Virus record (IMG/VR): IMGVR_UViG_3300020400_000007
Location: 1-59,818 of that record
DNA from: a virus
DNA: 59,818 nt
Direction: 5' to 3' (one strand)
The translations under genes were made by a program, and so were the position numbers. The notes below the pieces were generated by a model, which was not told the origin of the DNA, searched no databases, and saw only the letters and a program-made list of their open reading frames with translations. Below are positions 2,681 to 43,667 of the stretch, piece after piece (the stretch's first letter is position 1; each line of letters starts with the position of its first letter).

Positions 2681-3362
2681 ACATCTCATCCATATGGAAA
2701 CGTTCCTGTAACCAATCAAAGTCGTTTATTTTTGCTAGTAAGCTAGGCTCAGTCCTATTACTAGTACCGTAGTCACGCCCACTCCTAGCGCCAAGGATAC
2801 AAAATCTACCGAACTGTCTTTCAGCACCCTTTGTACACCATGTTTCAAGTCTGCTATTAGTTTCCTCATTGATTTGTCCTTTTATTAATTTACTTGATAG
2901 TTTTACACATTCTCTAAACGCACTTTTCCAAGTGCTAAACTCATCTGTGTTAAAGTTTGTTATGTTACTCACGTCTGGCATAGCCTTAAACCTATCGGAT
3001 ATAGATGTTGTCATATCACTGCTGGATACATTTACGTTCATGGTAAGTCTTCTTGGTAGGAGTTTCACACCACCATAACCGTATACTAGATCATTGATAG
3101 GATTTCGGCTACGCCAAACATGGACACAATCTAAATCGTAATCGCTTACTTTGTGATCTAGATTGAATTCTGGTAACAAGTCAGCATCACCATCTATGAC
3201 CCAAAACATTTTTGTTGAACATTTTTTGGCCGCAGTGATGTGAGCTTGATGAATGCCTTTGACACCGTGTACTCTTTTGGCACGTGGAAATCTTTCCACT
3301 AATTTGCTGTACCTTTGATCGGCGTCTGGCTCATTATAACTTATAAAACATATATCATACAT
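2667..3362 (-). CDS. Glycosyltransferase-like protein, GT-A type, paralogue 1
   Basis: This 231-residue protein opens with a strand-like ICFISYNEP and carries a DxD-type motif, DGD, at D57-D59 (WVIDGDADL), which in GT-A glycosyltransferases binds the metal and nucleotide sugar. It is clearly related to the 297-residue protein at 8975-9868: both have SY(N/D)EP, RVHGV(K/E)G, an AH-containing helix, xVxDGD, a W(K/R)(S/A)xFRExVK(L/M)S block and ILGAR(S/E)G near the end. The donor and acceptor sugars are unknown. It overlaps the SGNH hydrolase gene upstream by 8 bases and a radical SAM gene downstream, so it belongs to the same operon. Confidence 0.6.
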   Translation of the reverse strand: MYDICFISYNEPDADQRYSKLVERFPRAKRVHGVKGIHQAHITAAKKCSTKMFWVIDGDADLLPEFNLDHKVSDYDLDCVHVWRSRNPINDLVYGYGGVKLLPRRLTMNVNVSSSDMTTSISDRFKAMPDVSNITNFNTDEFSTWKSAFRECVKLSSKLIKGQINEETNSRLETWCTKGAERQFGRFCILGARSGRDYGTSNRTEPSLLAKINDFDWLQERFHMDEMYDTI

Positions 3363-20414: not shown

Positions 20415-20425
20415 TATTTATTTAG
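20415..20425 (-). promoter_or_regulatory. Overlapping late promoters CTAAATA and AATAAATA
   Basis: On the minus strand the bases read CTAAATAAATA, which holds both forms of the late element, 19 to 23 bases upstream of the ATG at 20396. The element overlaps the last codons of the giant gene upstream (stop at 20418). Confidence 0.6.
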
Positions 20426-23400
20426 GTAACGCCACCTCTTTGTTTCTTAAGAACCTGCCAATGTTATTTTCCGCTAATCTTAGTGGAGTTCCTGGATCAG
20501 TCCATCTTTTTCCTATACGTCTAACCACCATTATCTTGGTGTTAATAGGAGGTTGTTCAGTCAATGTTAAGGTAGTACTGCCTGCTGTCATACTAAATTC
20601 TGCTGGTAAAGTAGTATCTGCTTCAGGACTATCCAAATTAGTTGTTGGATCAAAGGAACTTATTGCATTTTTACGCAATCTTCTTCCGCCAACAAACACT
20701 TCAACTAAATCCATTACTGTACCAGATCCTGTTGGATCTTGTGGTACAAAGTCAAGTGTGTATGCTTTTGTTGAGCCATCTGACACAAAATTCAATGTCA
20801 TTGTTTCGTCTTTGTAAGGTACAGTTTGGTCTCTGCTTTGATCTAACACTACACTACCCTGAGAGTGTTTTGTTTTGACTCCTGTTCCTAATGTACCTCT
20901 TCTCAACTGTCTTAAAGCACCATCTTCTTTCAAATAATATTCTATTCGCTCACCACCTATGAACAATACACCTGGCATTTGTTTTGCTTTGTTTGGTATA
21001 GGTAAGCTGTCTACATTGGTTACAAATATCTTAGTATCGTACCAATTTAAATCTTCTGCTAGTGTGTATTCTACATCATCACCCAAACGTTTGAAGTGTG
21101 TTCTGTTCAACATATCTTTGAACTGTCTGTAACCAAATTTTGGAACAATAGTGTTGTTTGAGAAGTGTATCAACTCAACTACATCATTTGCATTGATGTC
21201 TGTAACAACTCTTACAGTTTGTCTATCTTCTTCTAAGTAATAATCAACACTTGGTGTTAATAATGTTCCGTTGACAACAATCCAAACATATTCAGCGTCA
21301 ATGGCAAGTGTGCGTAATTTTATTATTCCATTTGTAAGCTGATGATATTCTGTGTAGTTGCTTGTACCTACTGTTATAGGATTTCTTGTTACAACATCTA
21401 AATTAATTCTTTCTATTTTTCTAACATCATGTTTGCTAAACTGATAAACTGTAACTGCTGAACCGTTAGCAGGAGCATTATCAAAATAAATTTTGTTTGG
21501 TGTTGCGTTCCATAAACCGTTACCATCAAAGAAGCCAAATGAATAATCTCCATCGTTCCTGATGTACACGTTTAGAATATCACCTGCAACTCCTACGTCA
21601 CTGAACAAGTTTACAGTTGCGTTGAAAGTATTCCAGCTCCAACTTTGCGTTATAGTAATTTCTTCTCCATTCAAGAATACTCTTACCTTGTTTGCATCAA
21701 TACCAGCTTTTGGTATTTGATAATCTTTTAATGTATATTCTCTAGTTGCACTTACAACAAATCTTTGATTGTATCCTGCATTTAGAATATTGTTGTCTAC
21801 TTTTACAATTACATTTTGCTCTAATGGCTCTTGCGTAAACGGAGCCTGTGCAAGTGTAAATGAAGTTGTGTTTCCGTCACCTGTAAATGTGTCTGTTGTA
21901 ATTTGTGAGAAACTTGTACTTGCACTATCAAATATTGCATATTGTATTACAGCTCCATTCAAAGGTGCAGTTCCTAGTTTAAACACACTCATTCCTTTTT
22001 GTCCTGAGTAAGTATTGTCTGTTTCTGCAAGTGTTACATTTACAGTTTTACCATCAACAGTTAAGAAGTGACTTAATGTATTTTTGTATTTTACAGGGAC
22101 AACAAATTGTGCTGTTGAACCATCTCCAATGAAAGTATCTATATCAAGTATTTTTTCACCATTGTTACTCATTGTAATAATATGTACTTGTTCATTTAGT
22201 CCTGGTGCATTTGTAAGTTTAATTTTTTTGTTTTGATAATCAACTTCAAACAATGTATCTGCTAAAATATTTCCATTAACTTTTATCCAAACATCACTTT
22301 GGCTCATTGGTACAAAGTTAATGTCAAAGTCTTTGTTGTTTCCGTCGCCCAAGTAATTGTAGCTGTGTAATATACTTGAACCGTCACCTGTTCTGTCATA
22401 AACTTTAATATCTAGTGTGTCAAGCACTTGTCCTGGTACAAGTTCTTCTGGACCTTTTGATGTTAAAGGTGTTACAAAACTGTCACCATCAACAACAATT
22501 TCTTCTGCTGATAATCCACGTGCAGTTTGATATACAAGATCTCCACCTTGTAGTAAAGTATCATATCCATCTGGATCTGGAATAAATGATCCGTCGCTTG
22601 TTGATTTTCTAATTACAATAACATCATTTGCTACTGTTGGAACTTTTGTTTCGTCAAGCTGTATAAATGTTTGACCTGCACCTGTAATACTTTCCATTAC
22701 TGCATTTGGATTATTAGAAACAGTTGATCCGTCATATTGTGGATCATCTATTCTAACACCATTTTTATATACGTTATACACAACACCTGACTCTAAAGGT
22801 TTAGCAAGTGTAAACACATTTGTACTTCCGTCTAGTGTAAACACCTCATCTTCATATGTGTTATCGTAAGTGTCATATGTTGTTGTGTAGTAAGGCTCAC
22901 TTGACCAACCTGTACCTGCACCAAATGTAAAGCTCTTGACTTGAACTCCTCCATAATCAATTCCGTCCATAAGCTGAGATACATCTTTGCCTAACATACC
23001 TGTTGTTGGATCATAGAACATATTAATTCTATCTTGTGCTTGTAACATATCGATAGCTTTGCTGTAATTTACAACTATTGCAGAATTATTTGCAGGTGGT
23101 TCAGTAAATGTTACTCTACCTTTGCTTCTTGCATATGACTTTGTGTTGTCTGCAAGATTAGAAATTGTATATTCACTTTGTAGTGCTTCGATACCTGCCA
23201 CAGTTACAGTGATTGTAGTTGTTCTCAAATCCATTGGAAACTTAAGATCATATTGTGTTTTACTACCTGTGCCTGTGAAGTTTTCTACTTCTGTAAGTGT
23301 TGTGATTAAGAAGTTACCAGTTGTTCTATCAAACTTACTTACTATATGATTTGATCTTACTTTGCTGTTTCCTAGTTGTGCTGATACTACTGCTTTGACT

Positions 23401-26400
23401 CCTGCTGGATCCTGTGTTCCTTCTACAGTTACAGTTGGAGCAGACAAGTATCCTTTACCTGGATTAGTTACTGTGATATATTTAATTGTACCGCCAGCAC
23501 CTAATGTTGCTTTTGCAACTGCACCTGTACCACCGCCACCAACAAATTTGATTAATGGAGTTTCTAAATAAAGTGTACCGCCTGTTTTAATATTAATTTG
23601 TTTTACTTCAAAGCCAACACAGTCAGCCCAATACTTGTTAGGATATGTTGTTATTGAAGCATCTTGTCCTACTATTAAATCGTTTTGTACTTTTAAACTT
23701 GCAGGAACAATTTTACCATCATCTGAACTGTAAGCAGGTGGAATATCAAAGTCTGTGATACCACTTGCAGTTTCATCTGTGTTTGTATAGTTACTGATGT
23801 ACTCTCTAATTTTTGTTTTGTATGGTTTTGTTTCCTTAACAAAATCCTCATAACTTGGTAAACTATCATTTTGGAAAGTAATTTTTTGTTGTAAATCACC
23901 AGCATTGTGTTTTGCTTTTATAAAGCTAGTCTTAAATGCCCAGTCAACATTTGCTTGTTCAGAAAATACATATCTTAAACTTGCAAAGAATAATTTATTG
24001 TATTCAACTGCAAGATCGTTAATAAAAATATCATCTCTTAATGACTGTAATATAATTCTTAATTCTCTTGTAGGTTGATTATCATAGAATGATGTATCAT
24101 AACTTAATCCATCATATCCTATATTGCTGTTTGCACTATCAAACAAGCTGTTAGATAATTGTATGGTTCCATTTTCTCTACCAATAGTTTTGTATTTTGT
24201 TGTGTAATCACTGCCGTCATTACTAATTTTTTCAAGTAACAACCAACCGCCTGATCCTATTGTAGATATTTTTACTATATCTCCTACTGCATCGTCTAAT
24301 GAATCTAATTCATATGAGAAATCAATCAAGAAATCTGTTTCAGTAAATTCACTGTAACCCACATCATACCAATCTTCATACGTCCACCATTGTGTAACAT
24401 CATAAGATGAACTTGTAGTTCTTGCCCAAGTTTTAGAATTTTCTTGGTAAGCATATATAGACCATCTGCTGTTGACACTTTCGTCTACTGTTACCAACAC
24501 ACTATATTTTCTTACTTCAAGTGTTGTTTTTGGTCCATAATCATTACCTGTATTTTTGACCACAGCACTTGTAATTGTACCATGTGCGTCCATTGTAAGT
24601 GTAATCTCAGCACCAGATCCATTTCCTGTATTTCCAAATTCAACAGTTGGTATAGTTTTGTAACCTTTACCACCATTTGTAATATCAACTCTTGCAAGTC
24701 TGCCATTTTCAAACACAGGTGTTAATACTGCTGGAGAAATGTTTGACACTCCTACTGTAGATAATTCTGCATAAGTGTCTATTGCTTTATCAAACTTTCT
24801 ACTTAATAAAGTAGGAGTAGGATCTTTGCTTAAGAACTTGCTTAGATCAAATTCATCTACAATTAAATTTTGTTTTAATGTTCTATTAGCTCTTTCAACA
24901 GTTTGCTTTAATGCTTCAGTTTTGTTTTTAAACATTCCTTGTCTTGGTCTGTCTAAAATACCATATGCTTGTTTAGGACTTAAAATTGTATCTGGAACTG
25001 CTCTTTCATTTACATCAACTCCAATTAAACTGTCATACCATTTGCGTTCTAAGTCTTTGTTTGGTCTGCTAGTATCAAGCCCTTCTGTAAGCAATTGGTA
25101 CTGATTGTGTGCATTTATTTCTTTGTTCTCTATTGTCCAGTATCTAAAGTTAATTGCATTTTCTGGTCCACTTACAAGTGATTCACAGTTGTACAAACCA
25201 AATCTTGAATTGCTGTACATGGCAATAAATCTTTGTCCTTGTCCTGCAGGATCTTGTATCAATTGAGCAACGTCATACGCACTAGTTTTTCTAAACTCAA
25301 AGTGTGGTATAATTTTTTTATTTTTTACCCAGTAGTAATATTTGTTAAAGAAACTTTTTGCAACGTTATCAAATTTTTGTACCTGAACAAAAGTATTAAG
25401 ATCCTTAGGCGTACCACTAATACCTTTTGTTAATCCTTCTTCAGTGTCAGCTTGTTGAGACCATTGTGTTGGAGTAAGTGTTGATTCTACCCACTCATAA
25501 ACATCAATAGATGCACCTGTAAACAATTTGTTCCAATTAGCTGTATTGTAAATTATGTTGCCTTGGTATGGGTTTACAAATTTTGCTGTGCTTAGATCCC
25601 ACCATAGTCTACCTACCCATTTGGTATCCCAATAATTATCTGCGTCAATTACAGTATTTTGTGAAGGAGTTCCATTTGTGTAAACTGCTGGATCATAATG
25701 TGTTTTGAATGTTAATTCTTCTTCCGCCGCACCTGCAATTTTTCCTTGTATTGGATCTATATAATCCACTGCCTGAGCAACAGGATTTTCATTAATTTCA
25801 TAAATGAATATACCTTTGAATTTAGACAAGTCTACTTGATCCATTGGACTATGTAAAGTTGCCCACGGCATAACATCTCTTGTTCTCTTGAAATCTATAA
25901 GTGTTCCAATAAAATTATTATCAGTGATGGACAATTCTGGCATTGGCACATACACATGGTTTTCATTAAACAATAAGAACTCGCCAAATCTTTCTGTTGC
26001 AGGATTTTTGTAATTAAATTTCTCTGCATACAATAATTTGTTTCTTACCTTTTGATACATAAACACTTGTCCACTGTCAGCATTTACTTTTTCAAACTGC
26101 GTTAAGTTGTTGTCAAATGTTGTTGTAATGTTATCAAATGTTGTGCTTGTTACAAGGTCACCACCTTTAGAACTAATAACTAAATCATTGCCATTGAAAT
26201 CTATTGCCGCTCCGAATCTTTCTGCAACATCTTTTTCAGGACTGTATAGTGTTTGCGTTAATTCAAATGTTCCTAAATTGTTTGTGTATACAAAAACCTT
26301 ACCATTGTCATTAGATCTATCATCTGCCAAAGGAGCACCTACAGCCACCATTGATCCATCATCACTTACTGCAACACTTGATCCGAAACCTATTCCGGCA

Positions 26401-29400
26401 ACTGGTGCTGGAATCATTTGTGAAAATCCATAATGTCCTTTGATAAATCTATAAATTATAACCTTAGGATCACTGTTGTTAAAGTCTGCCACTGTTGCAA
26501 TCACTTCACCAAGTTTTGCTACTGCAAAAGGATGTGCGTAATTTGTAAGATTGGCTTTATCAAATGTGCTGTCATCACTTACAACAAGATTTGTATCATT
26601 TGGTAGGTATCCAATGTAATCTATAAATGCATCTATTACTGTCCAGAACGTTGGGTTCCATGCACCTGCTACAAGATTTGTGTTTGCTTGATAAAACTGT
26701 CCATTGTACAACACAATATCATTTGTGTAATAATCTTGTGAGTCACTAAATTCGCCTTTGAAGAAATAGTTTTTACTTCTTGCCCACTCATACGTTGTGC
26801 CATCAGTATCAGTACCATGCGTGACTAAATGTATTCTACCACTGTTGCTTGTTGTATTGTTGCCAGGAGCAGATACAAACAATCTGTACAATTCGCTTTG
26901 AGTTGATTTTGTTAATTTGATTATTGTACCTAAGAATCTATTTGATTCTCTTTGTGGATTTGTGTAACCATGTTGATATGAATACAATCCTGTACCCATT
27001 CTTTCATAAACAAAATATGCACCTTCATTTGTAAATGCACTTGGTGTACCTGTTGTATCTAATTTTAATGCACTAACTTGTTTCCAATCCTTGTTTAAAG
27101 GATTTGGAGTATTAGGCGTTCTTGCAACACCATTGACTGTTCTATTGTTGAACACATAAATTTCTAATTCATCTCTAAATGTTGGAGCAGTTACAGGCAA
27201 CATTGTGCTATCTGTGTTTCTTACCACAACAAGTTTTCCTGCTATACTACCAGACATATTTGCGTTGTCTAATCTACCGGATAATCTATCAACACCTGCA
27301 CTTACACCATCTTTGATTGCAATGGTACTTGTATCACTATGTTGATTACCAAACTTAAATGATCCATTTCTAGCTTTGACATACAATCTACAATCAAGTA
27401 ACTGTTCTTGCAAATACACAACTTCTGCTGTTGCATTTGTAGACTGGTCGATAATTATATCACCTATTTGCGGAATAAAAGGATTACCATTGTTATCAAA
27501 GTTTGTAAATGTTACATCTACAAATCCGTCCCAAATATCATATACACTATGTAAAGTGTCATTCAGATAATCAAATCCTATTCCTAGTGTTGCAGGATCA
27601 AATACTGTTAAAGTGTTACCACCACGTATTTCATTTACACGCATGGTAAATGGAGTACCAGATACCAATGTGTCTGTCCAAGCCTTAGGTGCCCTGAAGA
27701 ACCATAAAGGACTCAAGTCAGGCATACCTTGTTTGTTATAGAAACTTAAATGACCAAGTCTTCCTCCTTTGGTTGGATCTGACACTTGATTCAATGCATA
27801 CACATCGTCCATTGTGTTGTAATAAATTTCTGGACTTTTGCTTTCTGCCTGTGTAATAATATCTTGTATTACAAACTGTGGTTCTGTAATTTCTTTGACT
27901 GTGGTATCAAATGCTGTTGTAACATTTATTCTCCACCAACCCCCGAAAGATGCTTGTGAGTTTGTTGGTTCTACTAATGCATATGAACCCATCGTCACTC
28001 CGCCTAATGTTGCGTTGTCATTAGCAAGGAATTGACCATTCATACCACTGATGTAAATCATTGCTTGGTTTACGTTCTGAACACTTATATGATTTACTGT
28101 TCCTATTGCAGTACTTGTACTAATTAAATCACCTACCTGTGGTGTTCTTAATAAATTATCAAAATATAATACAGCATCTACTTTTGCAACAATAGATTTG
28201 TTGCCTTCAAGTTCACTTAATACAGGCCCTTGTACTCCAAATGGAACAACACCGTTTGGATAGTTTTGTGAATACTGTTTCCAGTTAAATGCTAAAGTGT
28301 CGCCAACTGCTGAACCTTCGTACTGTGCCGTTGGTGCTCTTACAAGTATATGATCTGTAGGAACATTAAATCTGTAATTTCCTCTTATTGCATATACTAT
28401 TTGTGGGTAAGCGGTTCCAGTCCATGATGCTTTTGCAATTTGTGTTGGGTCATAAAAACTATTGAAAGTTAAAGTGCCTTGTGCCGCTGAAATAGGAAAC
28501 TGTGCCTCCCAGAAGTTTTCTTGATATTGAATAATATCTTTTTCTGCGTAACTTACATTACTTGCAAATGCACCTTTGAATTTTGTTTTTGCGTTGCTGG
28601 CATTTGGTGCACCTATTACTAACCACTTGGCATCTGAACTTAAATCTAATCCAGTTCCAAACTTACCATCGCCTGTGTATAAATTTGCAGGAGCATCTAT
28701 TGTTTGTGCATGATTGTATGTGGTGTTGTCATTTGTTCTTTGGAAAATATAAACTTTGTTAGATTCATTTGCACCAACAACCAATGTTGTGTTTCTTTCG
28801 TCTGCTCCTATTACTTTACCAAAGTTTGTGCTACTATCACCAGTTTCAACATTACTGATAACTTGTAATTCACTATGTTGTGGAGTATTTTTAAGAACAA
28901 TCCAACGATTAGCACTATCGTCATCTACCCAAAGCAATTCACCAACTTGGAATTCACCAGCAAACAATCTTGTGTTTGCTTCTTCAAGGTTGGCAACTCT
29001 TGCAGACGTAAATGTTGTAAGAAAGCCATTTGCAGTTTCTACATCTGACGTTTCACCATTGTCTGTACAAAATACAGTATCTAATTCTGATCTAATAACT
29101 TTGAATAACTTTTCAGTGTCTGCAACATCAACAACACCTATGATATCATCTTTGACATAGTTTGCTTGATTGTTAAGTTTTATTTCAACTTCATTTGTTG
29201 TAGTGTTTTTTACGACTGATAAAATTTTATCATTTGTACGTGTATATTTTAAAACGTCCCAATCATCTATTTTGCTTGTACCTGTCCAAATATAATCACC
29301 TACATTTAAAGTTGTTAAAGTTAATCCTAATATGTCATCATATTTTGCAACTGTTTGTTTAACATCTGCACTATTAACATATCCAGCAGTTTGTATATAA

Positions 29401-32400
29401 TCTTTGTCCTTGTATTTTGTAGGGAACGGTGCGTGATTATATCCATCTGGTTTTAAATATGTTTCAAAAGGTCTTTGTCTGTAAATTAAATCAGTTTCGT
29501 TTCCAGTTACAGTTTGTACTAATTCAACTGGTTGTGGACTTAATCTAAACTTTGCCTCATCTAATTTGTATTCTACTTCCTCAAAGGATTGCGATGATCC
29601 TAGTTGTCCTAGTCTTACTGCCCATTCTTCATAAAAGTTTACACTATCAGCATCTGTGTTTGATAACGCATCAAACAATTTAGTCAAACTGTTTTGTGTT
29701 CCTTTGTCTTGAATAAATCCTTGATAAAACTTATACTGACTTACATCATCATTGATAATGTTTTCTAAATATTTTCTTTTTTGATAACCAATTAAGTGTT
29801 GTGCAACTCTTTGTTGATCAATATCAAAATTGTCTGTGTCAAGATCGTAAAAGTCTGCAAATTGTTTTGCTTTGTAGTCTAAGTTTGCTTGTAAGCCCGA
29901 CTTAGGTGCTTCTGATAATCTTTGCCAATCTACATCAACAAATACTTCTTTGCCAGGTAATTTACGTTTTGCAACATAAAAGAACTCTTTGTACTTGACG
30001 GTGTCTCCGATAGCATAATCTTTCCATGCTTCCCACTCTGTGATGTTTACTTCATCATATACAAATCCAGGTATGTTTAATCCGCCAGTCCAATCATCTG
30101 TTCTGTATCCAAGTACTTTAATTCTTTCTTGTCTGTAACCAGGCTCAAGATCATAAATGAAATCACTGAACACAGTTTTGTTATCTAAAAGACAAACGTG
30201 TTCAACTTGTATTAAAGGTATCTTAACAGCATATATTCCATCAGTTGTATTCTTAGTTGTTATACCTAAATTGTTATCATTGTCTCTGAAAACATTTAAA
30301 TTAGCTTGTAATAATTTTTTACCATCTGCTTTGAATAGATTGTAACCATAGAAGCTATCAAACAAGTTGTCAGCTACATGATGTTTTTTATAAAACTGTA
30401 AATTAATTGCACCCGGACTTAAAGTTATAACACTATTGGCTTGCCAATTTTGTGTTGTCCAGAACATAAATTCTTTTGCACTCAAAGACCAATCTTCAAC
30501 TTCATTTATTTCTTTGTTGTAATTTTGAAACACAAAACCTTGTGCTTTTAAATATCTTTCATAGCCAAGTAAAAAGTCAACCACACCTTGTATTGTTTTT
30601 ATTTGTGTACCATATGCAAGTTCTACAGGCTCTTGATTTATTCCTTCATTCCATTCACGTCTAAAGAAAGCAGATCTGCCTCCTTCAACTGGTAGTTCAG
30701 CAAGTCTTACAAATTTTTCTTGTTCAAATTCAGATCCTGCAACGTGCAAGGTTTCTGTCATGTAAAAATCGTTACCAAACTTAACTACAAATCCAGGACT
30801 GTAAGTTTGTCCTTCATTCCATTGTACAAAGTCTGCACTTACGCCACCAACTCTTACTAATGGATCATCTGCAAGTGCAACTGGTGTGTAATATTTAAAA
30901 TATGGATTATCATAATTGTAACCTTTTATAATAAAGCCACTTGCTACTTTTTCTATAATTACACCACTGTATGGTACCAAGTCTACAACACTTGATTTGT
31001 TTAAAAATATTTGATAGTTTTCTTCTGGAACAAAAACATTACCTTCGTTATAAGGAGTTCTACTGTCTAAAATTAATTTAAATTTAGCTTTCTCAGTAAA
31101 TCCACCAATCTTTAATCCTAGTTGGTTAGTGATGTTTGCTATATCATCTTTGTACTGTGAATAAAATTTAACAGTTTTGCTGTTCATGTAGTCTGCTATG
31201 TAGTTTACAAGTCCAGCAGTTTGCACACGAGTTTCATCTTCTATTGTGTTTGGAAACACAATGTCTGCTAATCTTAAACGTTTATTTGTTTCAGTGTAAA
31301 TTAATTCTTTAGCAAGATTTCTTTTTATTCTTGCTCTGTCAAATCCTGCACCTATAATTTTTGTTGGTTGGTTAAGCATCCAAGCAGTTATCAATGAGAA
31401 CGGATATTCAGAACTTCTGCGCCATGCAGTTTCAGTTGGTGCTTGATCGCCAAACACAAATGGTTCTTGTGTTCTGTTGCTTATATAATTTTTAGCATAG
31501 TTACTGTCCAATGGACTTAATAAATTACCGCCATCATCAACTGGAATGTGTTTTGTAATATTTGTTCTTGCATATTTTTCATTATACACCATAGGCACAT
31601 CAGGTATTCTGTAAGCACCCTTTTCAATGTCTTGCCACAATATTTTATTTTCACTTGTATAAGGAGCAGAACCGTACACTGATTGCCACCAAGTTGGTTC
31701 TTCTGAGTATCCTAGCATTTCCCAAGGGTGAGTGTGAGGACGATCAGTATCATATGCTTCTTTGTATACAGCTCTCCAATATCCTGGATTCTGTTTGCCT
31801 GAAGGAGAACTAGTGTTGCTGTAATTGTATGTAAAGCTGTTTGCTCTTGACCAAAAAGTAAAATCAGTATAATCTGGATCGCCTACTGCTCTGTTCCATT
31901 CTACAAAATCAGCCAACATGGCTTTGTCACGTGCATTTCTAGTATAACCTGTGTATCTAGATTCACCACCTATAAAGTCATGTATGTTTAAAATATCAAC
32001 ATCATAATTAATTTTTATATTGTTGTAAATTCTTTTTTCTAATTCAATTAAAAGGTCATCTCTGAAATCATTGTAAGCAACAAATATACTTCCATCATGT
32101 CCTTGTATAACTTTTGTAGGAGTTTGATAAGTGTTGTCTACAAATATTTCTGGTTTAAATTTAGGATACAAACCAAGTTTAGTTGGTGTTGGTGGAATAT
32201 AACTTCCGTCTGTATTGTCGTATTCATATATTTCAATCAAGTCGTTAATGTTTTTAGTTTTTGTTATTGTAACAAATCCTGCAAACTCTGATTCAAATTT
32301 GTAATCAGTGCCATGTATTAACTGTACCCCATTGATATAAACGTTTACTGCCTTGTTAGTTAATTTTGTAAGATCAAAACTTGTAGCAAGTGGAAAATAT

Positions 32401-35138
32401 TGTGTTGATGTGTTTTCAACTAAATGTTCTGACTTTTTAAAAGTTCCCACTCCAAGCATATCACTGAAGTAAAAAGGCATATCATTAGTCTTGTTTTCAT
32501 TTAATTTTTGCATCACCTTGTCAAAATGAATTTTAGTTGCACCATCAAATCCTAAAGTAGTTGCTGTTTGTAAAAACATTTTTCTAAATTTACCATATTG
32601 TGATCTAGCATATCTCATTGCCAATATGATATTTGCTTGTTTGTTTGTGATGTGATAGTTTGCTAAATTAAAAGGTCCACTTGATTGTATAAACTTTGTT
32701 CCATAAGCAGACAAGTTTCCTAAATCACGTAAATTTCCTGTGCCTGGAAAAGTACCCGTAAAGTCTTCACGCATTTCAACAATGCTTGATACATGATCAT
32801 TTACTTCACCAAGTGTAAACGATCCTATATTATTGTTAAGTGGATTTCTTTCTAAGTTACTTGCAATTTCATACACACCGTTTGCATTTTTCTGTGCATC
32901 ACTTTTTGTTTTAATTACAAGTATGTCATCTTTTTTGAGATCTTTTACAAATCTTACAAATGCTGTTCCATTTAATCTATTGATTGTAAAGTCAGTGCCA
33001 CTTTTCTTTGCTTTATTGTTTACATATATTCTAGTAAACAAATCATTTAAGTCACCGCTTCTATTATAAACATCTATGGCAAAATCATTTAGCTGTGTAT
33101 CTACAACATAAATTCTTCGTACCAATTGTTTGCTGTCCTCATAACCTTTGATCCAACCAGATGCGTATGTGAATGTAGTTCTGTCTGTGTATCTTTTTAA
33201 AAGACCTACGTCTGTTTTTCCTGTAAGTGTAGCATTTAAATTTTGATATGTAAATGTGTCGTTGAGCAAATTAAAATCAAACACAATATCACCTGTGTTT
33301 ACAAGAGCTCTGTATGTTAAAGGAAATCCTAATACAGCATCATTTGTGCCTGTGCCTTTCTTGTAACTGAATAATTTTGTCCCTGTAAAAGTTGAACTTG
33401 GATAAGTTGTTTTATCAGTAAAAGCATTTCCATTGACATCAAACAAATCAAAGGTTGGGCTTTGGTTTACAGAAGTCTTGTCTTGCCCTGCCAACCACTT
33501 GGTACCGTTGTAGTACCACATTTTTCCTTTGTATTCGTCACCTTGTTTAATTAACACACATTCATTTTCTAAAGGATTTGTGTCTGTTTCTTCAACTAAA
33601 CTAATTTGTCTTACGTTGTTATGCGTAATAAATTTTACTTTAAAAATTTTACCTGCTACTCTAGTGTCTGGGTCTGCTGTAAACAAGATACGCATATTGT
33701 CGCCAACATCAACTCCATCAATGTTGTAACCTATGGAACCTTCTACTATACTAAACACATCATCTGTGAATGTGTCTAAAAGATCAACGTCTTTTTTTGC
33801 TTCGGTTCCAAAGTTAAAAAGTTTAATCTGTGATTCAAATTCTATAATTGGTCTTGCCGCTCTACCTGTTTGATTTATATCTGCAGGTTCGTCAAGTACT
33901 AATGCAACTGTTTCTAAAACAGATTTATGAAACCACTTGTTATATCTTGACCAAGGACTTCTGCTTGTTGCAGATCTGTTCTGTACAATATAATCATGTG
34001 TGTTTGCGTATGCACTTGCAGTACTAAATGGACTTCTATCAAAACCTTCTGAATCAAATGGATTAGCTCTGCTTGTTGAATAGGTTCCAGGGATCATTAC
34101 TTCCTGTTCTGATATTAATTTAATTGCATCTCCTACACCTTCTACATACCAATTGCCTTCTGCATACTTGGCTGGTGTAACTGTGCCTTGGAAATCTACT
34201 TTCATACCATTTGACATTTCATAACCATTTGTCATCTTGTATGTTTTCTTGCCAACAATTTCTGCTTCTACATCTATTTCTGTATTTTCTTGCACATCAT
34301 ATACTTGTATCAATCCACTTGCATTAATGTCATTTCCGTTTACATAATATAATGTGTCTGGGGCAAGTAAATCAACTGTGAATTCAATTACGCCTACATC
34401 TGTTGTATGTGAACTATCACTTAATCCTTCGCTGTACAAATAATCATTGTCAAGTGTACGAGCAGTTCTAATTGACAAAGGCATACCCGGAGTGTTTACT
34501 TCAAACTTGTATGTCTGTCCTCTATATAATTTTAATGTTGGATTGTTTGTTTTTCCATCAGGTGTAAACACGTATGCTTTGTTATCCAAGTTGTCTATGC
34601 TTGTAACTTTGTATGTGCTTGTAATTCCTTTTGCTTGTCCTACCACAGGAATTGCTAATGGACCATTTGGTAACCAATAGTAATCTCTAAAATTGGTAAA
34701 CTTATCCCAGTCTATATGAGGATTCCAAGAATAGTATTCTTGTTTAAAAGTTTTGCTGTCATCATCAACAGTACCATTGAATGCTTTTATTTGATTTTTT
34801 AAATCGTTGTAATCTTTATAAAAAGTTACATTGTTTAAATTATCTTTGATAACTGTTGCTGGTTCAAATTGATATTCTTCTCTTTCTGGACTTACATCAG
34901 GTACATAATTATCAGACGCCTTTCTTGCTGTTGCAATTCTTCTACCGTAGTAGGAACTGATTTTTTCAGCTACGCCTGGATTTAGTAATTGATCAAGTGT
35001 TGCACTTAAAAACTTTTTATTGTGTGCTGTGCGAAAATATTTAGGCAGATGTTCTGCACTAGTTCTTCTGTGCTGATCACTATTGCTTTGATCTCCTGCC
35101 GGTAATGGATATTCTTCTTGGTTAGCATTATAGGCCAT
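20418..35138 (-). CDS. Giant baseplate-linked structural protein, 4906 residues
   Basis: A single uninterrupted frame of 14.7 kb lies directly after gp6 (TAATG overlap), where T4 has gene 7 (1032 residues). The N-terminus (SAEHLPKYFRTAHNKKFL, then YYWLPNGP) seems particle-anchoring. Visible modules, roughly: carbohydrate-binding-like GD-V-Y-Y repeats near residues 1434, 1699, 2188 and 2793 (for example YAIGDTVKYKEFFYVAK); FG-GAP beta-propeller-like repeats near 2104, 2914 and 2973 (FGSSVAVSDDGSMVAVGAP); two GKGY-x-PTV modules around 3500 and 3880; and at least six GDGST-type beta-domains from 3951 to 4779. It ends with a short GKRW/FLR/LP motif. It is likely a baseplate wedge and long, host-surface-contacting fibre in one chain. 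The exact T4 counterpart is unsure. Confidence 0.8.
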   Translation of the reverse strand: MAYNANQEEYPLPAGDQSNSDQHRRTSAEHLPKYFRTAHNKKFLSATLDQLLNPGVAEKISSYYGRRIATARKASDNYVPDVSPEREEYQFEPATVIKDNLNNVTFYKDYNDLKNQIKAFNGTVDDDSKTFKQEYYSWNPHIDWDKFTNFRDYYWLPNGPLAIPVVGQAKGITSTYKVTSIDNLDNKAYVFTPDGKTNNPTLKLYRGQTYKFEVNTPGMPLSIRTARTLDNDYLYSEGLSDSSHTTDVGVIEFTVDLLAPDTLYYVNGNDINASGLIQVYDVQENTEIDVEAEIVGKKTYKMTNGYEMSNGMKVDFQGTVTPAKYAEGNWYVEGVGDAIKLISEQEVMIPGTYSTSRANPFDSEGFDRSPFSTASAYANTHDYIVQNRSATSRSPWSRYNKWFHKSVLETVALVLDEPADINQTGRAARPIIEFESQIKLFNFGTEAKKDVDLLDTFTDDVFSIVEGSIGYNIDGVDVGDNMRILFTADPDTRVAGKIFKVKFITHNNVRQISLVEETDTNPLENECVLIKQGDEYKGKMWYYNGTKWLAGQDKTSVNQSPTFDLFDVNGNAFTDKTTYPSSTFTGTKLFSYKKGTGTNDAVLGFPLTYRALVNTGDIVFDFNLLNDTFTYQNLNATLTGKTDVGLLKRYTDRTTFTYASGWIKGYEDSKQLVRRIYVVDTQLNDFAIDVYNRSGDLNDLFTRIYVNNKAKKSGTDFTINRLNGTAFVRFVKDLKKDDILVIKTKSDAQKNANGVYEIASNLERNPLNNNIGSFTLGEVNDHVSSIVEMREDFTGTFPGTGNLRDLGNLSAYGTKFIQSSGPFNLANYHITNKQANIILAMRYARSQYGKFRKMFLQTATTLGFDGATKIHFDKVMQKLNENKTNDMPFYFSDMLGVGTFKKSEHLVENTSTQYFPLATSFDLTKLTNKAVNVYINGVQLIHGTDYKFESEFAGFVTITKTKNINDLIEIYEYDNTDGSYIPPTPTKLGLYPKFKPEIFVDNTYQTPTKVIQGHDGSIFVAYNDFRDDLLIELEKRIYNNIKINYDVDILNIHDFIGGESRYTGYTRNARDKAMLADFVEWNRAVGDPDYTDFTFWSRANSFTYNYSNTSSPSGKQNPGYWRAVYKEAYDTDRPHTHPWEMLGYSEEPTWWQSVYGSAPYTSENKILWQDIEKGAYRIPDVPMVYNEKYARTNITKHIPVDDGGNLLSPLDSNYAKNYISNRTQEPFVFGDQAPTETAWRRSSEYPFSLITAWMLNQPTKIIGAGFDRARIKRNLAKELIYTETNKRLRLADIVFPNTIEDETRVQTAGLVNYIADYMNSKTVKFYSQYKDDIANITNQLGLKIGGFTEKAKFKLILDSRTPYNEGNVFVPEENYQIFLNKSSVVDLVPYSGVIIEKVASGFIIKGYNYDNPYFKYYTPVALADDPLVRVGGVSADFVQWNEGQTYSPGFVVKFGNDFYMTETLHVAGSEFEQEKFVRLAELPVEGGRSAFFRREWNEGINQEPVELAYGTQIKTIQGVVDFLLGYERYLKAQGFVFQNYNKEINEVEDWSLSAKEFMFWTTQNWQANSVITLSPGAINLQFYKKHHVADNLFDSFYGYNLFKADGKKLLQANLNVFRDNDNNLGITTKNTTDGIYAVKIPLIQVEHVCLLDNKTVFSDFIYDLEPGYRQERIKVLGYRTDDWTGGLNIPGFVYDEVNITEWEAWKDYAIGDTVKYKEFFYVAKRKLPGKEVFVDVDWQRLSEAPKSGLQANLDYKAKQFADFYDLDTDNFDIDQQRVAQHLIGYQKRKYLENIINDDVSQYKFYQGFIQDKGTQNSLTKLFDALSNTDADSVNFYEEWAVRLGQLGSSQSFEEVEYKLDEAKFRLSPQPVELVQTVTGNETDLIYRQRPFETYLKPDGYNHAPFPTKYKDKDYIQTAGYVNSADVKQTVAKYDDILGLTLTTLNVGDYIWTGTSKIDDWDVLKYTRTNDKILSVVKNTTTNEVEIKLNNQANYVKDDIIGVVDVADTEKLFKVIRSELDTVFCTDNGETSDVETANGFLTTFTSARVANLEEANTRLFAGEFQVGELLWVDDDSANRWIVLKNTPQHSELQVISNVETGDSSTNFGKVIGADERNTTLVVGANESNKVYIFQRTNDNTTYNHAQTIDAPANLYTGDGKFGTGLDLSSDAKWLVIGAPNASNAKTKFKGAFASNVSYAEKDIIQYQENFWEAQFPISAAQGTLTFNSFYDPTQIAKASWTGTAYPQIVYAIRGNYRFNVPTDHILVRAPTAQYEGSAVGDTLAFNWKQYSQNYPNGVVPFGVQGPVLSELEGNKSIVAKVDAVLYFDNLLRTPQVGDLISTSTAIGTVNHISVQNVNQAMIYISGMNGQFLANDNATLGGVTMGSYALVEPTNSQASFGGWWRINVTTAFDTTVKEITEPQFVIQDIITQAESKSPEIYYNTMDDVYALNQVSDPTKGGRLGHLSFYNKQGMPDLSPLWFFRAPKAWTDTLVSGTPFTMRVNEIRGGNTLTVFDPATLGIGFDYLNDTLHSVYDIWDGFVDVTFTNFDNNGNPFIPQIGDIIIDQSTNATAEVVYLQEQLLDCRLYVKARNGSFKFGNQHSDTSTIAIKDGVSAGVDRLSGRLDNANMSGSIAGKLVVVRNTDSTMLPVTAPTFRDELEIYVFNNRTVNGVARTPNTPNPLNKDWKQVSALKLDTTGTPSAFTNEGAYFVYERMGTGLYSYQHGYTNPQRESNRFLGTIIKLTKSTQSELYRLFVSAPGNNTTSNSGRIHLVTHGTDTDGTTYEWARSKNYFFKGEFSDSQDYYTNDIVLYNGQFYQANTNLVAGAWNPTFWTVIDAFIDYIGYLPNDTNLVVSDDSTFDKANLTNYAHPFAVAKLGEVIATVADFNNSDPKVIIYRFIKGHYGFSQMIPAPVAGIGFGSSVAVSDDGSMVAVGAPLADDRSNDNGKVFVYTNNLGTFELTQTLYSPEKDVAERFGAAIDFNGNDLVISSKGGDLVTSTTFDNITTTFDNNLTQFEKVNADSGQVFMYQKVRNKLLYAEKFNYKNPATERFGEFLLFNENHVYVPMPELSITDNNFIGTLIDFKRTRDVMPWATLHSPMDQVDLSKFKGIFIYEINENPVAQAVDYIDPIQGKIAGAAEEELTFKTHYDPAVYTNGTPSQNTVIDADNYWDTKWVGRLWWDLSTAKFVNPYQGNIIYNTANWNKLFTGASIDVYEWVESTLTPTQWSQQADTEEGLTKGISGTPKDLNTFVQVQKFDNVAKSFFNKYYYWVKNKKIIPHFEFRKTSAYDVAQLIQDPAGQGQRFIAMYSNSRFGLYNCESLVSGPENAINFRYWTIENKEINAHNQYQLLTEGLDTSRPNKDLERKWYDSLIGVDVNERAVPDTILSPKQAYGILDRPRQGMFKNKTEALKQTVERANRTLKQNLIVDEFDLSKFLSKDPTPTLLSRKFDKAIDTYAELSTVGVSNISPAVLTPVFENGRLARVDITNGGKGYKTIPTVEFGNTGNGSGAEITLTMDAHGTITSAVVKNTGNDYGPKTTLEVRKYSVLVTVDESVNSRWSIYAYQENSKTWARTTSSSYDVTQWWTYEDWYDVGYSEFTETDFLIDFSYELDSLDDAVGDIVKISTIGSGGWLLLEKISNDGSDYTTKYKTIGRENGTIQLSNSLFDSANSNIGYDGLSYDTSFYDNQPTRELRIILQSLRDDIFINDLAVEYNKLFFASLRYVFSEQANVDWAFKTSFIKAKHNAGDLQQKITFQNDSLPSYEDFVKETKPYKTKIREYISNYTNTDETASGITDFDIPPAYSSDDGKIVPASLKVQNDLIVGQDASITTYPNKYWADCVGFEVKQINIKTGGTLYLETPLIKFVGGGGTGAVAKATLGAGGTIKYITVTNPGKGYLSAPTVTVEGTQDPAGVKAVVSAQLGNSKVRSNHIVSKFDRTTGNFLITTLTEVENFTGTGSKTQYDLKFPMDLRTTTITVTVAGIEALQSEYTISNLADNTKSYARSKGRVTFTEPPANNSAIVVNYSKAIDMLQAQDRINMFYDPTTGMLGKDVSQLMDGIDYGGVQVKSFTFGAGTGWSSEPYYTTTYDTYDNTYEDEVFTLDGSTNVFTLAKPLESGVVYNVYKNGVRIDDPQYDGSTVSNNPNAVMESITGAGQTFIQLDETKVPTVANDVIVIRKSTSDGSFIPDPDGYDTLLQGGDLVYQTARGLSAEEIVVDGDSFVTPLTSKGPEELVPGQVLDTLDIKVYDRTGDGSSILHSYNYLGDGNNKDFDINFVPMSQSDVWIKVNGNILADTLFEVDYQNKKIKLTNAPGLNEQVHIITMSNNGEKILDIDTFIGDGSTAQFVVPVKYKNTLSHFLTVDGKTVNVTLAETDNTYSGQKGMSVFKLGTAPLNGAVIQYAIFDSASTSFSQITTDTFTGDGNTTSFTLAQAPFTQEPLEQNVIVKVDNNILNAGYNQRFVVSATREYTLKDYQIPKAGIDANKVRVFLNGEEITITQSWSWNTFNATVNLFSDVGVAGDILNVYIRNDGDYSFGFFDGNGLWNATPNKIYFDNAPANGSAVTVYQFSKHDVRKIERINLDVVTRNPITVGTSNYTEYHQLTNGIIKLRTLAIDAEYVWIVVNGTLLTPSVDYYLEEDRQTVRVVTDINANDVVELIHFSNNTIVPKFGYRQFKDMLNRTHFKRLGDDVEYTLAEDLNWYDTKIFVTNVDSLPIPNKAKQMPGVLFIGGERIEYYLKEDGALRQLRRGTLGTGVKTKHSQGSVVLDQSRDQTVPYKDETMTLNFVSDGSTKAYTLDFVPQDPTGSGTVMDLVEVFVGGRRLRKNAISSFDPTTNLDSPEADTTLPAEFSMTAGSTTLTLTEQPPINTKIMVVRRIGKRWTDPGTPLRLAENNIGRFLRNKEVALPK

Positions 35139-38100
35139 TAGTATCCACTCCCAGAGCCGCCGCTATATCCACCACCTGAACCTGAACCACCTGATCCTCC
35201 AGAACCGCCAGAGCCACCTGAACCGCTTGATCCGGAGCCTGAACTAGAACTGCTAGAACTTGAAGTTGTTGTTCCTGATGAACCTGAACTATATGAACTT
35301 GCAACTGAACCTGATGAATAAGTTGTACCGCTTGTTACACCGGTTGTTCCACTTGCTGATGTAGTAACAACGTTGCCTGATGCTTTTAATTTACTTGCTG
35401 TAATGGCATCAATAATAGCAACATCATCTACAGTAGCACCACTTATAAAAATTTCATCTGCTTCTGATTTGATCTCATATAAACTTCCAAATGCTTGACT
35501 TTCTTGCTTTGGAACAATTACTAGATTTACAAGATCAGGCGCTGTTTTGTTCATAACGTAAGTAGCCATCTCTGAGAAATGAAAAGTATCACCAAAATCC
35601 CAATTTTCTAAAGCAAAATATTCATTCATTGCAGATACAACTCTTGCTTTTATGTCGTTGTCATTTACAACTTGATCTGGATTTTTAACAATCTTAATAC
35701 TTGCCTGTAATCGAGCATCTGCTTTTGCTCCAAATAATACTTTGTACTTGACTGGATGATATATTACATCATCACTAATAGATTTAATTTTGCTTATTGC
35801 TGATCCATAGTTGTTAAACAAATTATCACTGCTAGGTGGTAAAGGCAAACTATCCAATGTACCGTCAAGGTATTTTCTAAAGTTTGTGTCATAAGTTCTT
35901 GTTAACAAGTACGTGTCAACAATGTTACTTGAACTTGGATCTATTCTGCTGTCATCGTCTGCAGAATGTATGTAATGAAATTTAAGTCCTGCTCTACCTA
36001 CGTATGCTTTGTAGTCAGTTGTTAAAGCCAATGATGCACTAGTTTTACTGTAGATTTTAAATACTGCTTCTGTTACAAGATAAAACACTTGTCCGTCATC
36101 GTATTGACTTAACGCACCAACAAAACTTTCATTTTGTTTTACAAGAACTGTGCTTGTGGCGTTGTCCATGTATTTGTAATCTTCAATACCATCACTTGTT
36201 GTGTATTTTTTAAGAAATACATATTTTGTTAATGGATTAGTTGTTTCATCAACTAGTGTTACAAAAGTTTCTGGATCATCAACTACACCATCATCATCTG
36301 AATCAAAAAATGTTATTTCAACTTTTTTACTGTCTATGTATCCGTCACCGTCTCTATATTCTGCAGAAACTTCCCAAGGATAATCTACATTGAAAGGTGA
36401 TGTTGAATCTGGTTGCGTGTTTATGTTTAACACTTTAATTTTATCTTTTATAATTTGTCCTGTTCTATTATCATAAATTTTTTGTGTGCTATCATAATAG
36501 AATCTTATTTCTTCATTACTTTCAAAAATATATCTTTGTCCTCTGGTTGTGATAGTATATTTTTCTCCGTCTGTTTCAAATAATAGTAACCAACTTGCAT
36601 CTAATTGCTGATCTGTAACATCACCTGTTTTACCTGTGCTAAATGCACTTGATATATCTAGGTTGTTTTCAGTAATCATTCTCCACTGTCTTAAGTTACT
36701 GTCATATCTTAATCCAAAAGTTTTGTAAGCAAATATTTGATCCGTCATTTGTGATTGTACATCTGCTAATAAATTTTTACTGAATTTTGGTTTAAGTTCT
36801 GACAAAATAGCATTAGAATCTACTAGATCATTTAACACAATAGGTCCTGATCCATCTGCATTGTCAGTTCTGCCGTCACCAGTGACACTTACAACTTTTA
36901 CCCATTTATAAGTAATTGCATTTTTATGGTTAGGCAATCCTTGCATTAGTTTGTGTGAATTATCTGCCATAAAGTGAAAACCTGTTGGAGCAGTAAATTT
37001 TAACAATGTTCCTGCTTCAATAAATTTTAATGCACTTGCAGTAAAACTTCCTACTTGTAAAGCTGTGCTGTTAGAGTCAACAAATTTACCTGTTGACATA
37101 TTTGTTTTAGTTGTTGATCCTGACCATTTAGCACCCAAGTCTGCAACAAGTGTTTTTGCAAAATTTGTAAGATAATAATTTACCATTGACTTTTTACTCA
37201 ACAATGGTGTTACAGTATTTGCAATAGTGCCTTGGATATCTGTTTTAGTTACAAAAGTAAAACTAGTTTTTTCTGTGAAACTGTCTTTGTACAATACACC
37301 GTCATCACCATACAAGTTTGTGCTTGAATATTTTCCTGTTGCATCTAATAAATCATAATATCTTGATATACCAGAACTTGTTCTGTTTACACTTTTTACT
37401 TTAATAATTTCTTGACTTATGCTTAATGGACTTACTTGATAATCCTCACCAGTAACCATTCTGTTTTGTGTGTAATAAGTTGCAGGTGCATTTTCTCTAA
37501 TACTTGCATTACTTTCAGATATTGTTGCGTTGTCTACTGTGTATTTTAATTCTAGTGATAAACTTAATGACTCACTGTTTCCTGCTTTAGATGTGTAAGG
37601 AATGTTAATACTAATTGCAACTAGATCTGATGGATTAATATTGTATTGATCATTTAGTGATGTTCTGTAATAAGTTCTAAAAGATCCTTGTGGTAAGTTA
37701 CCAAATGTTCCGTCACTAAAAATTAAATCAACTGCATCTTGTGTTTTACTTAATACGCCATAAATGTTTCTAACACTTTTACGCAAACTATTGTAAACAA
37801 TATTGTTACCTTCAATAGCATCAACCTTTGTCCACAGTTGATCCTCAGCACCAATTGAATTTAATTTGTAAAGCCAAATGTCTGTGTTATTAATATTTGT
37901 TGCTTCTAAACCTACAGTTTGATTTGTGCTTGGATTATCAATAGTAAATGTTCCTGTGTCAAGTACACCTTGTCTGAAATGTGCAAAATATCCTGAGTTA
38001 GAACTGCCAGGTCCTCTGCCGTCATCTCTGTACAAGAATCCTAAACTGTTTCCTGGCAATGGTGCTTCTTCAGAAATAACACCATCGTTAACATCTGTTG

Positions 38101-38746
38101 ACACAACTTGAAACTGCATATTCTTTCCATCAACATTTTTACTAAATGTGTAAACTGGCACATCTGAATTACTTGCATCAAATCTATATTGGAATGTGGG
38201 TACACCTTCAACATTGTCTTTCTTGATAGGTTTACCTACTATACTGTTTGTTGGTAAAGCCGCATTCAGTACTTTTTCAAATTGTTCACGCCAGTTTGTG
38301 TTTGCAGGATCGTTCCATAAAACTGTTTGGTTTGCTAGATTAGTTCCATTGCTGTCAACAATATCTTCTGTTGTTGCAATAGATTCAAACTTTAGCAATC
38401 CGTTTGCTGTTTGATTTCTCTTTGGATTGTAAGAAAGAAGTCTAGCTAAACGCAGTATTGATTCTCTACGTTCAGCTAACTCTAAAAAGTTTTCTCTTGC
38501 ATTTAAGTCAATTCTAAATGAAATGTTTTGACCGAGGAAAGCAATAAGATCAATTAATGCTAGATACTCACTTGATTCGATGTAATCGTTAAAATCTTCT
38601 GGATAATTTTGTCGCAAATAGTTGATCATTGTTCTACGCAGATTGTCAAAATCATATGACTTGAAGTCTGCGTTTCTAAATGACTGATAGACCTTTTTCC
38701 AGTCTTCAGCTAACAATAATCTGTTTTGTCTATTTGTCGATGACAT
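35138..38746 (-). CDS. 6: Baseplate wedge protein gp6
   Basis: The N-terminus (LLAEDWKKVYQSFRNADF, YDFDNLRRTMINYL, YLALIDLIAFLGQNISFRID, ENFLELAERRESILRLARLL) is the conserved start of T4 gp6, the wedge protein that forms the continuous ring around the baseplate hub. At 1202 residues it is nearly twice T4 gp6 (about 660), with extra beta-rich insertions in the middle. The last ~70 residues are almost only Ser, Gly and Thr (nucleotides 35141-35353), an unusual flexible tail. It has a late promoter at 38766-38773 and an AAGGA ribosome site. The giant gene follows with overlapping stop and start. Confidence 0.88.
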   Translation of the reverse strand: MSSTNRQNRLLLAEDWKKVYQSFRNADFKSYDFDNLRRTMINYLRQNYPEDFNDYIESSEYLALIDLIAFLGQNISFRIDLNARENFLELAERRESILRLARLLSYNPKRNQTANGLLKFESIATTEDIVDSNGTNLANQTVLWNDPANTNWREQFEKVLNAALPTNSIVGKPIKKDNVEGVPTFQYRFDASNSDVPVYTFSKNVDGKNMQFQVVSTDVNDGVISEEAPLPGNSLGFLYRDDGRGPGSSNSGYFAHFRQGVLDTGTFTIDNPSTNQTVGLEATNINNTDIWLYKLNSIGAEDQLWTKVDAIEGNNIVYNSLRKSVRNIYGVLSKTQDAVDLIFSDGTFGNLPQGSFRTYYRTSLNDQYNINPSDLVAISINIPYTSKAGNSESLSLSLELKYTVDNATISESNASIRENAPATYYTQNRMVTGEDYQVSPLSISQEIIKVKSVNRTSSGISRYYDLLDATGKYSSTNLYGDDGVLYKDSFTEKTSFTFVTKTDIQGTIANTVTPLLSKKSMVNYYLTNFAKTLVADLGAKWSGSTTKTNMSTGKFVDSNSTALQVGSFTASALKFIEAGTLLKFTAPTGFHFMADNSHKLMQGLPNHKNAITYKWVKVVSVTGDGRTDNADGSGPIVLNDLVDSNAILSELKPKFSKNLLADVQSQMTDQIFAYKTFGLRYDSNLRQWRMITENNLDISSAFSTGKTGDVTDQQLDASWLLLFETDGEKYTITTRGQRYIFESNEEIRFYYDSTQKIYDNRTGQIIKDKIKVLNINTQPDSTSPFNVDYPWEVSAEYRDGDGYIDSKKVEITFFDSDDDGVVDDPETFVTLVDETTNPLTKYVFLKKYTTSDGIEDYKYMDNATSTVLVKQNESFVGALSQYDDGQVFYLVTEAVFKIYSKTSASLALTTDYKAYVGRAGLKFHYIHSADDDSRIDPSSSNIVDTYLLTRTYDTNFRKYLDGTLDSLPLPPSSDNLFNNYGSAISKIKSISDDVIYHPVKYKVLFGAKADARLQASIKIVKNPDQVVNDNDIKARVVSAMNEYFALENWDFGDTFHFSEMATYVMNKTAPDLVNLVIVPKQESQAFGSLYEIKSEADEIFISGATVDDVAIIDAITASKLKASGNVVTTSASGTTGVTSGTTYSSGSVASSYSSGSSGTTTSSSSSSSSGSGSSGSGGSGGSGGSGGSGSGGGYSGGSGSGY
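35141..35353 (-). repeat. Ser/Gly low-complexity coding repeat at the end of gp6
   Basis: On the plus strand this reads as imperfect repeats of CC(N)GAACC and CCACCTGA units and is locally more GC-rich than its surroundings. It encodes about 70 residues of Ser-Gly-Thr tail. Confidence 0.75.
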
Positions 38747-38793: not shown

Positions 38794-39225
38794 TTAATAC
38801 TGTCCCGACTCTTCATCGAATTTAAGCCTCAAACGTTCGGAAATATTGTATGGTAGATATGTCAAATCCACGTCTACTAATATTCCACTTTCGTAACTAT
38901 CACACTCTATGGAGTTTACAACAACACGTGGGTCGCTGTTTACTATATCACTTACATTTTTGGCTATTGCTTCTTTCATATCTTCTGTAAGTGGCTCATA
39001 TATGGCGTCCCAAATAATTGTTCCAAATTCTGGATTCATCAGCTTTTCACCTTGTTTTATGTGAAAACTGTTGATAATATCTTGTTTGATCAACGAAATA
39101 TCAAATAATGACTTGCTGTTGTTATCAGGGTTGACTGTGCTTATACCTTTGTATGCACGATTGGTTGTGCTAGGTTGCTTGTTCTTACCTGATGGAACTG
39201 TAATTTTTTTGTATAACTCTGCCAT
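38794..39225 (-). CDS. 25: Baseplate wedge protein gp25
   Basis: This 143-residue protein has the GPW/gp25 family pattern: an N-terminal linker, SLIKQDIINSF, GEKLMNPEFGTIIWD, YEPL, a helix, RVVVNSIE and paired C-terminal strands (ILVDVDLTYLPYN, ERLRLKFDEE). The gp25 protein has a lysozyme-like fold without proven lytic activity and is part of the sheath-initiating inner baseplate of contractile tails and type VI secretion systems. Its place between gp5 and gp6 is the usual order in cyanophage-like T4 relatives. Its length is close to T4 gp25 (132 residues). Confidence 0.9.
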   Translation of the reverse strand: MAELYKKITVPSGKNKQPSTTNRAYKGISTVNPDNNSKSLFDISLIKQDIINSFHIKQGEKLMNPEFGTIIWDAIYEPLTEDMKEAIAKNVSDIVNSDPRVVVNSIECDSYESGILVDVDLTYLPYNISERLRLKFDEESGQY

Positions 39226-43361: not shown

Positions 43362-43667
43362 CTATACTCCTAGTATATCTTTTAATGTAGCCCCTTTTGG
43401 AACATAAATTTTAGATCCTGATTTAAAATCATATATTGGATCTTCCATTGTGTCCATGTTACGTTGACAGAAAACCCACCATAGGTTTGGATTGCCATAG
43501 ATGTCATAAGCAAACAAGTCTGGACGTTGATGATACTGAGGTTCTATTTGATACACCACATCATCACTTCCGGCAGGTACCGGTCTAATTCTAAAATTGC
43601 TTAGATATTCCTTTGTATCGTTGTAGGGTGTTCTGAAGTAAGGACTTGATTGACTGTAAGTAGGCAT
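43362..43667 (-). CDS. 53: Baseplate wedge protein gp53
   Basis: This 101-residue protein has the conserved signature RPDLFAYDIYGNPNLWWVF and DFKSGSKIYVP of gp53, a LysM-like baseplate wedge component that clamps adjacent wedges. It is about half the length of T4 gp53 (196 residues), keeping the core only, as usual in marine relatives. Its start overlaps by one base the stop of gp48 (position 43667), and the hub-type gene follows after three bases, so the order gp48-gp53-hub-gp5-gp25-gp6 is one transcription unit. Confidence 0.88.
   Translation of the reverse strand: MPTYSQSSPYFRTPYNDTKEYLSNFRIRPVPAGSDDVVYQIEPQYHQRPDLFAYDIYGNPNLWWVFCQRNMDTMEDPIYDFKSGSKIYVPKGATLKDILGV

Follow-up and report, generated by a model that had tools for sequence, protein, structure and literature searches.

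In phage T4, the gene that follows gp6 encodes the baseplate wedge protein gp7 (1032 aa), whose hallmark is the (gp6)2-gp7 heterotrimer. A protein of the gp7 type from phage XM1, gp17 (242 aa), joins two gp6-type chains and uses its C-terminus and an internal loop to bear tail spikes (PMC10457771). Oversized proteins encoded after gp6 are a recurrent feature of two phage groups. The first group is that of the PHROG 10938 giants of cultured Rak2-like jumbo phages: PBECO4 gp538 (3333 aa), CBB_236 (3340 aa), the Ettore/PA5oct protein (3857 aa), Atu_ph07 gp180 (4449 aa), AP-J-162 gp58 (4455 aa), which follows wedge proteins of 131 and 1198 aa (PMC11242549), and the homologues in RaK2 and GAP32. 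CBB_236 was found in virions by mass spectrometry, with 21 unique peptides and 7.72% coverage (PMC5259590), and so was the 382 kDa gp245 of phAPEC6 (17 peptides, 7.6%; PMC7247149), the homology of which is inferred from its size and its position after a baseplate wedge gene.

The second group comprises cyanophages, in which the genes straight after gp6 encode proteins of 7124 (P-SSM7), 6405 (S-RIM50), 6198 (S-ShM2), 5195 (P-SSM2), 4225 (ACG-2014f) and 3895 aa (S-SRM01), with the lengths derived from coordinates and with the two genes upstream of the P-SSM2 giant annotated as predicted proteins only. The annotations of these giants are inconsistent: structural protein, predicted protein, or baseplate wedge initiator, as in S-RIM50, ACG-2014f and S-SRM01. 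In S-ShM2, the giant is encoded at L219:9319-27915, and the gene annotated as gp7 is a different one, located downstream.

The gene, its neighbours and its relatives

The window analysed, meaning the whole stretch of 59,818 bases (36% G+C), is an entire virus record. Its baseplate locus contains the following genes:

20418..35138, (-): giant baseplate-linked virion protein, 4906 aa, 551 kDa predicted; ORF with homologues
35138..38746, (-): gp6-like baseplate wedge protein, 1202 aa; PHROG baseplate wedge, E 3e-290; 1-base overlap with the start of the giant gene
38794..39225, (-): gp25-like sheath initiator; PF04965; before the gp6-like gene
39238..40803, (-): baseplate hub/tail lysozyme-like protein
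43362..43667, (-): baseplate wedge subunit; its syntenic counterpart carries the annotation gp53 in both CBB and Vibrio phage 2.275.O

The genes for the gp6-like, gp25-like and hub/lysozyme-like proteins, a virion protein and the wedge subunit are located upstream of the giant gene and in the same direction. By comparison with the T4 record, the giant gene, directly after gp6, occupies the position of the T4 gp7 gene. At the junction, TACTAATG, the gp6 stop codon and the ATG of the giant gene overlap by a single base, the last of that stop codon, and GGGAG is present upstream. The preliminary description had claimed one frame of 4906 residues after gp6, and this is borne out by the ATG, the single terminal stop and the PHROG match of gp6. 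There are zero N across the window, and the chance of 4906 stop-free codons, computed from base composition, is about 10^-163.

The link to the baseplate claimed in the same description is upheld by gene order. The gp25 and gp6 genes lie upstream of the giant in all 69 of the metagenomic loci that extend far enough in that direction, and also in Ettore, Atu_ph07, PBECO4 and CBB; the exception among the cultured jumbo phages examined is SCTP-2 (MF360958), in which the giant occupies 128-139 kb and the gp6 homologue 231-235 kb. As these two are about 90 kb apart, the gp6-giant adjacency is not universal. The SCTP-2 giant adjoins another very long gene (positions 139271-148561 of that record).

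A tblastn search with the first 1000 residues retrieved 57 phage records, mostly of Rak2-like jumbo phages, plus those of the PA5oct and Atu_ph07 types. The phrog_10938 family matched the giant in 4 stretches with 1053 bits, and full-length alignment with the proteins of cultured phages gave 26-29% identity; megablast against phages gave no match. Querying IMG/VR by alignment yielded at least 591 stretches coding for relatives, whereas few or no new ones came from DNA-pattern scans based on segments of Atu_ph07, Ettore and PBECO4. This is a marine virus related to the Rak2-like jumbo phages, and the homology supports the assignment of the giant to the kind of virion protein present in CBB and phAPEC6. 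The cultured PHROG 10938 giants compared have 3333-4455 aa, versus 4906 here. The idea of an exceptional size did not hold, as relatives and cyanophages have equally large or larger genes at the same place. With cyanophage giants straight after gp6, neither the size nor the place is new; the size of this intact baseplate gene is real, and cultured jumbo phages and marine cyanophages precede it. What can be added is that a widespread and almost undescribed marine giant belongs to the baseplate wedge locus, and that its domain borders are now available to structural studies.

Conserved scaffold and mosaic of modules

The giant is a mosaic of a scaffold, a cupredoxin fold, carbohydrate-module-like segments, an FG-GAP/CBM module and about ten T7-fibre-like units. 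Its features, ordered along the protein, are listed below:

29439..35138, (-): conserved scaffold part 1, residues 1-1900; conservation blocks; contains the phrog_10938 matches
34914..35066, (-): N-terminal 'LPxYFR' helical segment, residues 25-75; pLDDT about 50-70
34269..34631, (-): cupredoxin-fold domain, residues 170-290; Foldseek E about 3e-5 to laccases/rusticyanin; PHROG 677
32895..33131, (-): T7-fibre-like beta unit, residues 670-748; unit profiles cross-match
32208..32414, (-): T7-fibre-like beta unit, residues 909-977; unit profiles cross-match
30693..30830, (-): CBM5/12-like module, residues 1437-1482; PDB profile match at 1437-1474
29913..30041, (-): CBM5/12-like module, residues 1700-1742
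29553..29906, (-): helical segment, residues 1745-1862; invariant K1812-G1813 within FYQGFIQDKGTQNSLTKLF
25809..29438, (-): variable module, residues 1901-3110; mostly unalignable in PBECO4 and Ettore
28593..28838, (-): two FG-GAP-like blade motifs, residues 2101-2182; motifs in sequence
26643..26762, (-): CBM5/12 module, residues 2793-2832; above Pfam cut-off
26139..26438, (-): FG-GAP repeat, residues 2901-3000; above Pfam cut-off; integrin-alpha match
23709..25808, (-): conserved scaffold part 2, residues 3111-3810; conservation blocks
24504..24683, (-): Gly-rich beta module, residues 3486-3545; common with the cyanophage S-ShM2 giant
23304..23621, (-): Gly-rich beta module, residues 3840-3945; common with the S-ShM2 giant; PHROG 460 match
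20505..23291, (-): eight divergent T7-fibre-like beta units, residues 3950-4878 (3950-4028, 4094-4185, 4258-4330, 4331-4405, 4412-4465, 4466-4533, 4598-4666, 4775-4878); PF03906, weak DUF2460

According to the conservation blocks, the scaffold (residues 1-1900 and 3110-3800) is common to the cultured phages. Structure prediction in pieces, recommended in the preliminary description, covered residues 1-1900 in two pieces and yielded AlphaFold2 models of residues 1-720 (pLDDT 83, pTM 0.73; the first 120 residues mostly poor) and 721-1900 (pLDDT 85, pTM 0.75), but gp7 was absent among the best 50 PDB fold matches listed for these models. The 721-1900 model had zero Foldseek matches in the PDB at E<=0.001 and matched 34 predicted viral proteins, including that of Atu_ph07; thus, most of this region has no solved counterpart visible to Foldseek. 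PDB sequence-profile searches with six segments detected small modules only.

By inspection, the copper-ligand residues are missing from the cupredoxin domain. This domain had tblastn matches in 126 cyanophage-type records, some of them annotated gp9, so that a cupredoxin fold is common to the giant baseplate protein and to the gp9-type tail-fibre connectors of cyanophages. A CBM5/12 match within residues 1301-1900 was present in 16 of 18 relatives, and the CBM-like modules are putative sugar binders. In the variable module, FG-GAP blades, with motifs at 2106, 2160 and 2918 and weaker ones at 2975 and 3051, flank an insert that holds a CBM5/12 module, as if they were parts of a beta-propeller into which some 700 residues had been inserted. 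FG-GAP repeats occurred in this stretch in 15 of 16 members scanned; the module is a feature of the marine clade, whereas Pfam detects none in PBECO4, Ettore and Atu_ph07. The modular change of residues 1900-3100 fits a putative role in contact with the host or with glycans.

The repeated beta-domains that had been noticed at the end of the protein are real, as the profiles of ten units match one another (best E 2e-8), and nothing below 1e-3 was obtained with these profiles against the reversed and 20 shuffled sequences. However, the units are divergent, and not confined to the end, since two of them are at residues 670-748 and 909-977. The Gly-rich modules occur repeatedly in the S-ShM2 giant, which is encoded, as are the other cyanophage giants, at the same locus after gp25-gp6 and is similar or greater in size, but no scaffold homology with it was detected. 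The PHROG 460 label 'head closure Hc2' stems from this repeated Gly-rich module and was not adopted as a function; the PHROG label 'head and packaging' was rejected as a function of the giant as well.

Proposed role and possible relation to T4 gp7

The giant is probably a virion protein that occupies the wedge position of gp7 (gp25-gp6-X) and has been enlarged into a peripheral platform for fibres/host contact. The scaffold, residues 1-1900 and 3110-3800, would bind the gp6 wedge, and the inserted and appended modules (cupredoxin, CBM5/12-like, FG-GAP, about ten T7-fibre-like and Gly-rich ones) would form the periphery of the baseplate, where they would carry fibres and touch the host surface. 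We propose this arrangement by analogy to XM1 gp17, in which a wedge core is combined with spike attachment by an insert and the C-terminus; the two proteins, of 242 and 4906 aa, are likened by their proposed role. What speaks against a place in the wedge is the lack of a gp7 profile match and of a PDB match for residues 721-1900, as well as the separation of the two genes in SCTP-2.

A stronger claim, compatible with the wedge-platform reading, is that the giant is genuinely orthologous to T4 gp7 but has diverged strongly, and we regard the chances for and against it as about equal. The gp6-binding core would then be split into a hairpin (residues 25-75) and a second part (about 1745-1862), with about 1700 residues of other domains between the two halves. 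The L31-P32 and K1812-G1813 pairs are invariant or nearly so throughout the family (L31 and P32 in 18 homologues, P32 in 65), and gp7 proteins of the T4 type likewise have an invariant KG site. T4 gp7 and the cyanophage giants have the motif FYxxKG[T/I]xxSxxxLFxxLY in common, KG[T/I/S] being present in the six cyanophage giants read, and the distance from LP to the KG[T/I]xxSxxxLF motif varies in cyanophages from about 180 to about 690 residues. Residues 1804-1822 of the giant, FYQGFIQDKGTQNSLTKLF, resemble the KG[T/I]xxSxxxLF of gp7 below significance, and residues 25-75 may correspond to the helical hairpin that comes first in the wedge core. Similarly, domain I of XM1 gp17 is interrupted by an insertion (PMC10457771).

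The LP...KG[T/I] motif pair, possibly common to both proteins, hints at orthology to T4 gp7 and, apart from the gene position, is the only pointer to it. A motif PSSM ranked the KG site best of all positions in the giant, but its score of 6.4 is within the shuffled maxima (95% at 6.7), the site was chosen after the motif had been seen, and it is not the top one in several relatives, including cultured ones. The comparison of the N-terminal region with T4 gp7, which the preliminary description had suggested, gave no significant profile match: none was obtained with the T4-type gp7 family profile (seven proteins) against four segments of the giant, the N-terminal one included. Neither the single T4 gp7 sequence nor a focused sub-block hhalign of the giant against gp7 provided support. 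Homology of domain I to gp6, reported for the gp7-type protein of XM1 (PMC10457771), was looked for between the giant and gp6 and found no support. T4 gp7 is also five times shorter. The cyanophage giants are closer to it in their N-terminus and KGT segment than the giant described here, and a profile comparison of one segment of the latter with the N-terminal part of a cyanophage giant gave no significant match. Because the motif score lies within the shuffled maxima and the profiles were negative, the giant was not filed as gp7. More tentatively, one may imagine that in Rak2-like and marine T4-like phages insertions nested in gp7 and additions at its C-terminus made it into an arm of 3-7 kilo-residues, with its gp6-binding core split by a large insertion, doing the connector and receptor-contact work of several T4 proteins.

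The great length and modularity of the giant would also suit a polyprotein-like chain cut during assembly into several tail proteins, and the authors of the RaK2 work suggest that the major capsid protein of RaK2 is cleaved. We consider such processing unlikely: no cleavage signal was identified, and divergent phages retain the frame, with the scaffold segments in the same order. The published peptide coverage of the homologues in virions is low, under 8%.

There is a similarly small chance that the giant is a part of long tail appendages (whiskers or long fibres) rather than of the wedge, and that its adjacency to gp6 is mere genomic linkage. The T7-fibre-like units, the CBB whiskers, to which no gene is assigned (PMC5259590), and the SCTP-2 giant, which is not adjacent to gp6, would agree with that. 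However, GAP32 has the protein even though the CBB paper treats this phage as possibly without whiskers (PMC5259590), and the gp25-gp6 synteny is otherwise near universal.

Intactness of the giant frame and other genes of the window

The C-terminal 999 residues of the giant were found in 18 of 20 IMG/VR contigs searched, in each case within an uninterrupted frame of 4458-5624 residues; taken from ATG, these homologous frames correspond to proteins of 4451-5622 aa. The 18 contigs are not all independent, since two of them (L117 and L118) apparently carry the same protein and come from the same virus. Across eight blocks of the giant, dN/dS was about 0.07-0.10 in one close pair and 0.13-0.19 in the other; therefore, every tested part is maintained as protein. 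An assembly error joining separate genes, named in the preliminary description as a refuter, has nothing but the unusual length in its favour and is excluded by the homologous frames intact in 18 other contigs and in isolates, with purifying selection uniform along the giant.

Several other genes of the window deserve mention. Three consecutive tail-fibre-like genes on the (-) strand (14404-15894, 15924-17735 and 17745-19778; 496, 603 and 677 aa) are paralogues, with the N-terminal 190-335 or so residues in common at 32-39% identity and with different C-terminal parts. Two large genes on the (+) strand, 50267-52864 and 56143-58749, encode proteins of 865 and 868 aa, without a PHROG or Pfam match, respectively. 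Between positions 104 and 9000, three radical-SAM-type genes are clustered with an Asp/Asn hydroxylase-like gene and a UDP-glucose/GDP-mannose dehydrogenase-like gene, which suggests a pathway modifying a small molecule or a surface.
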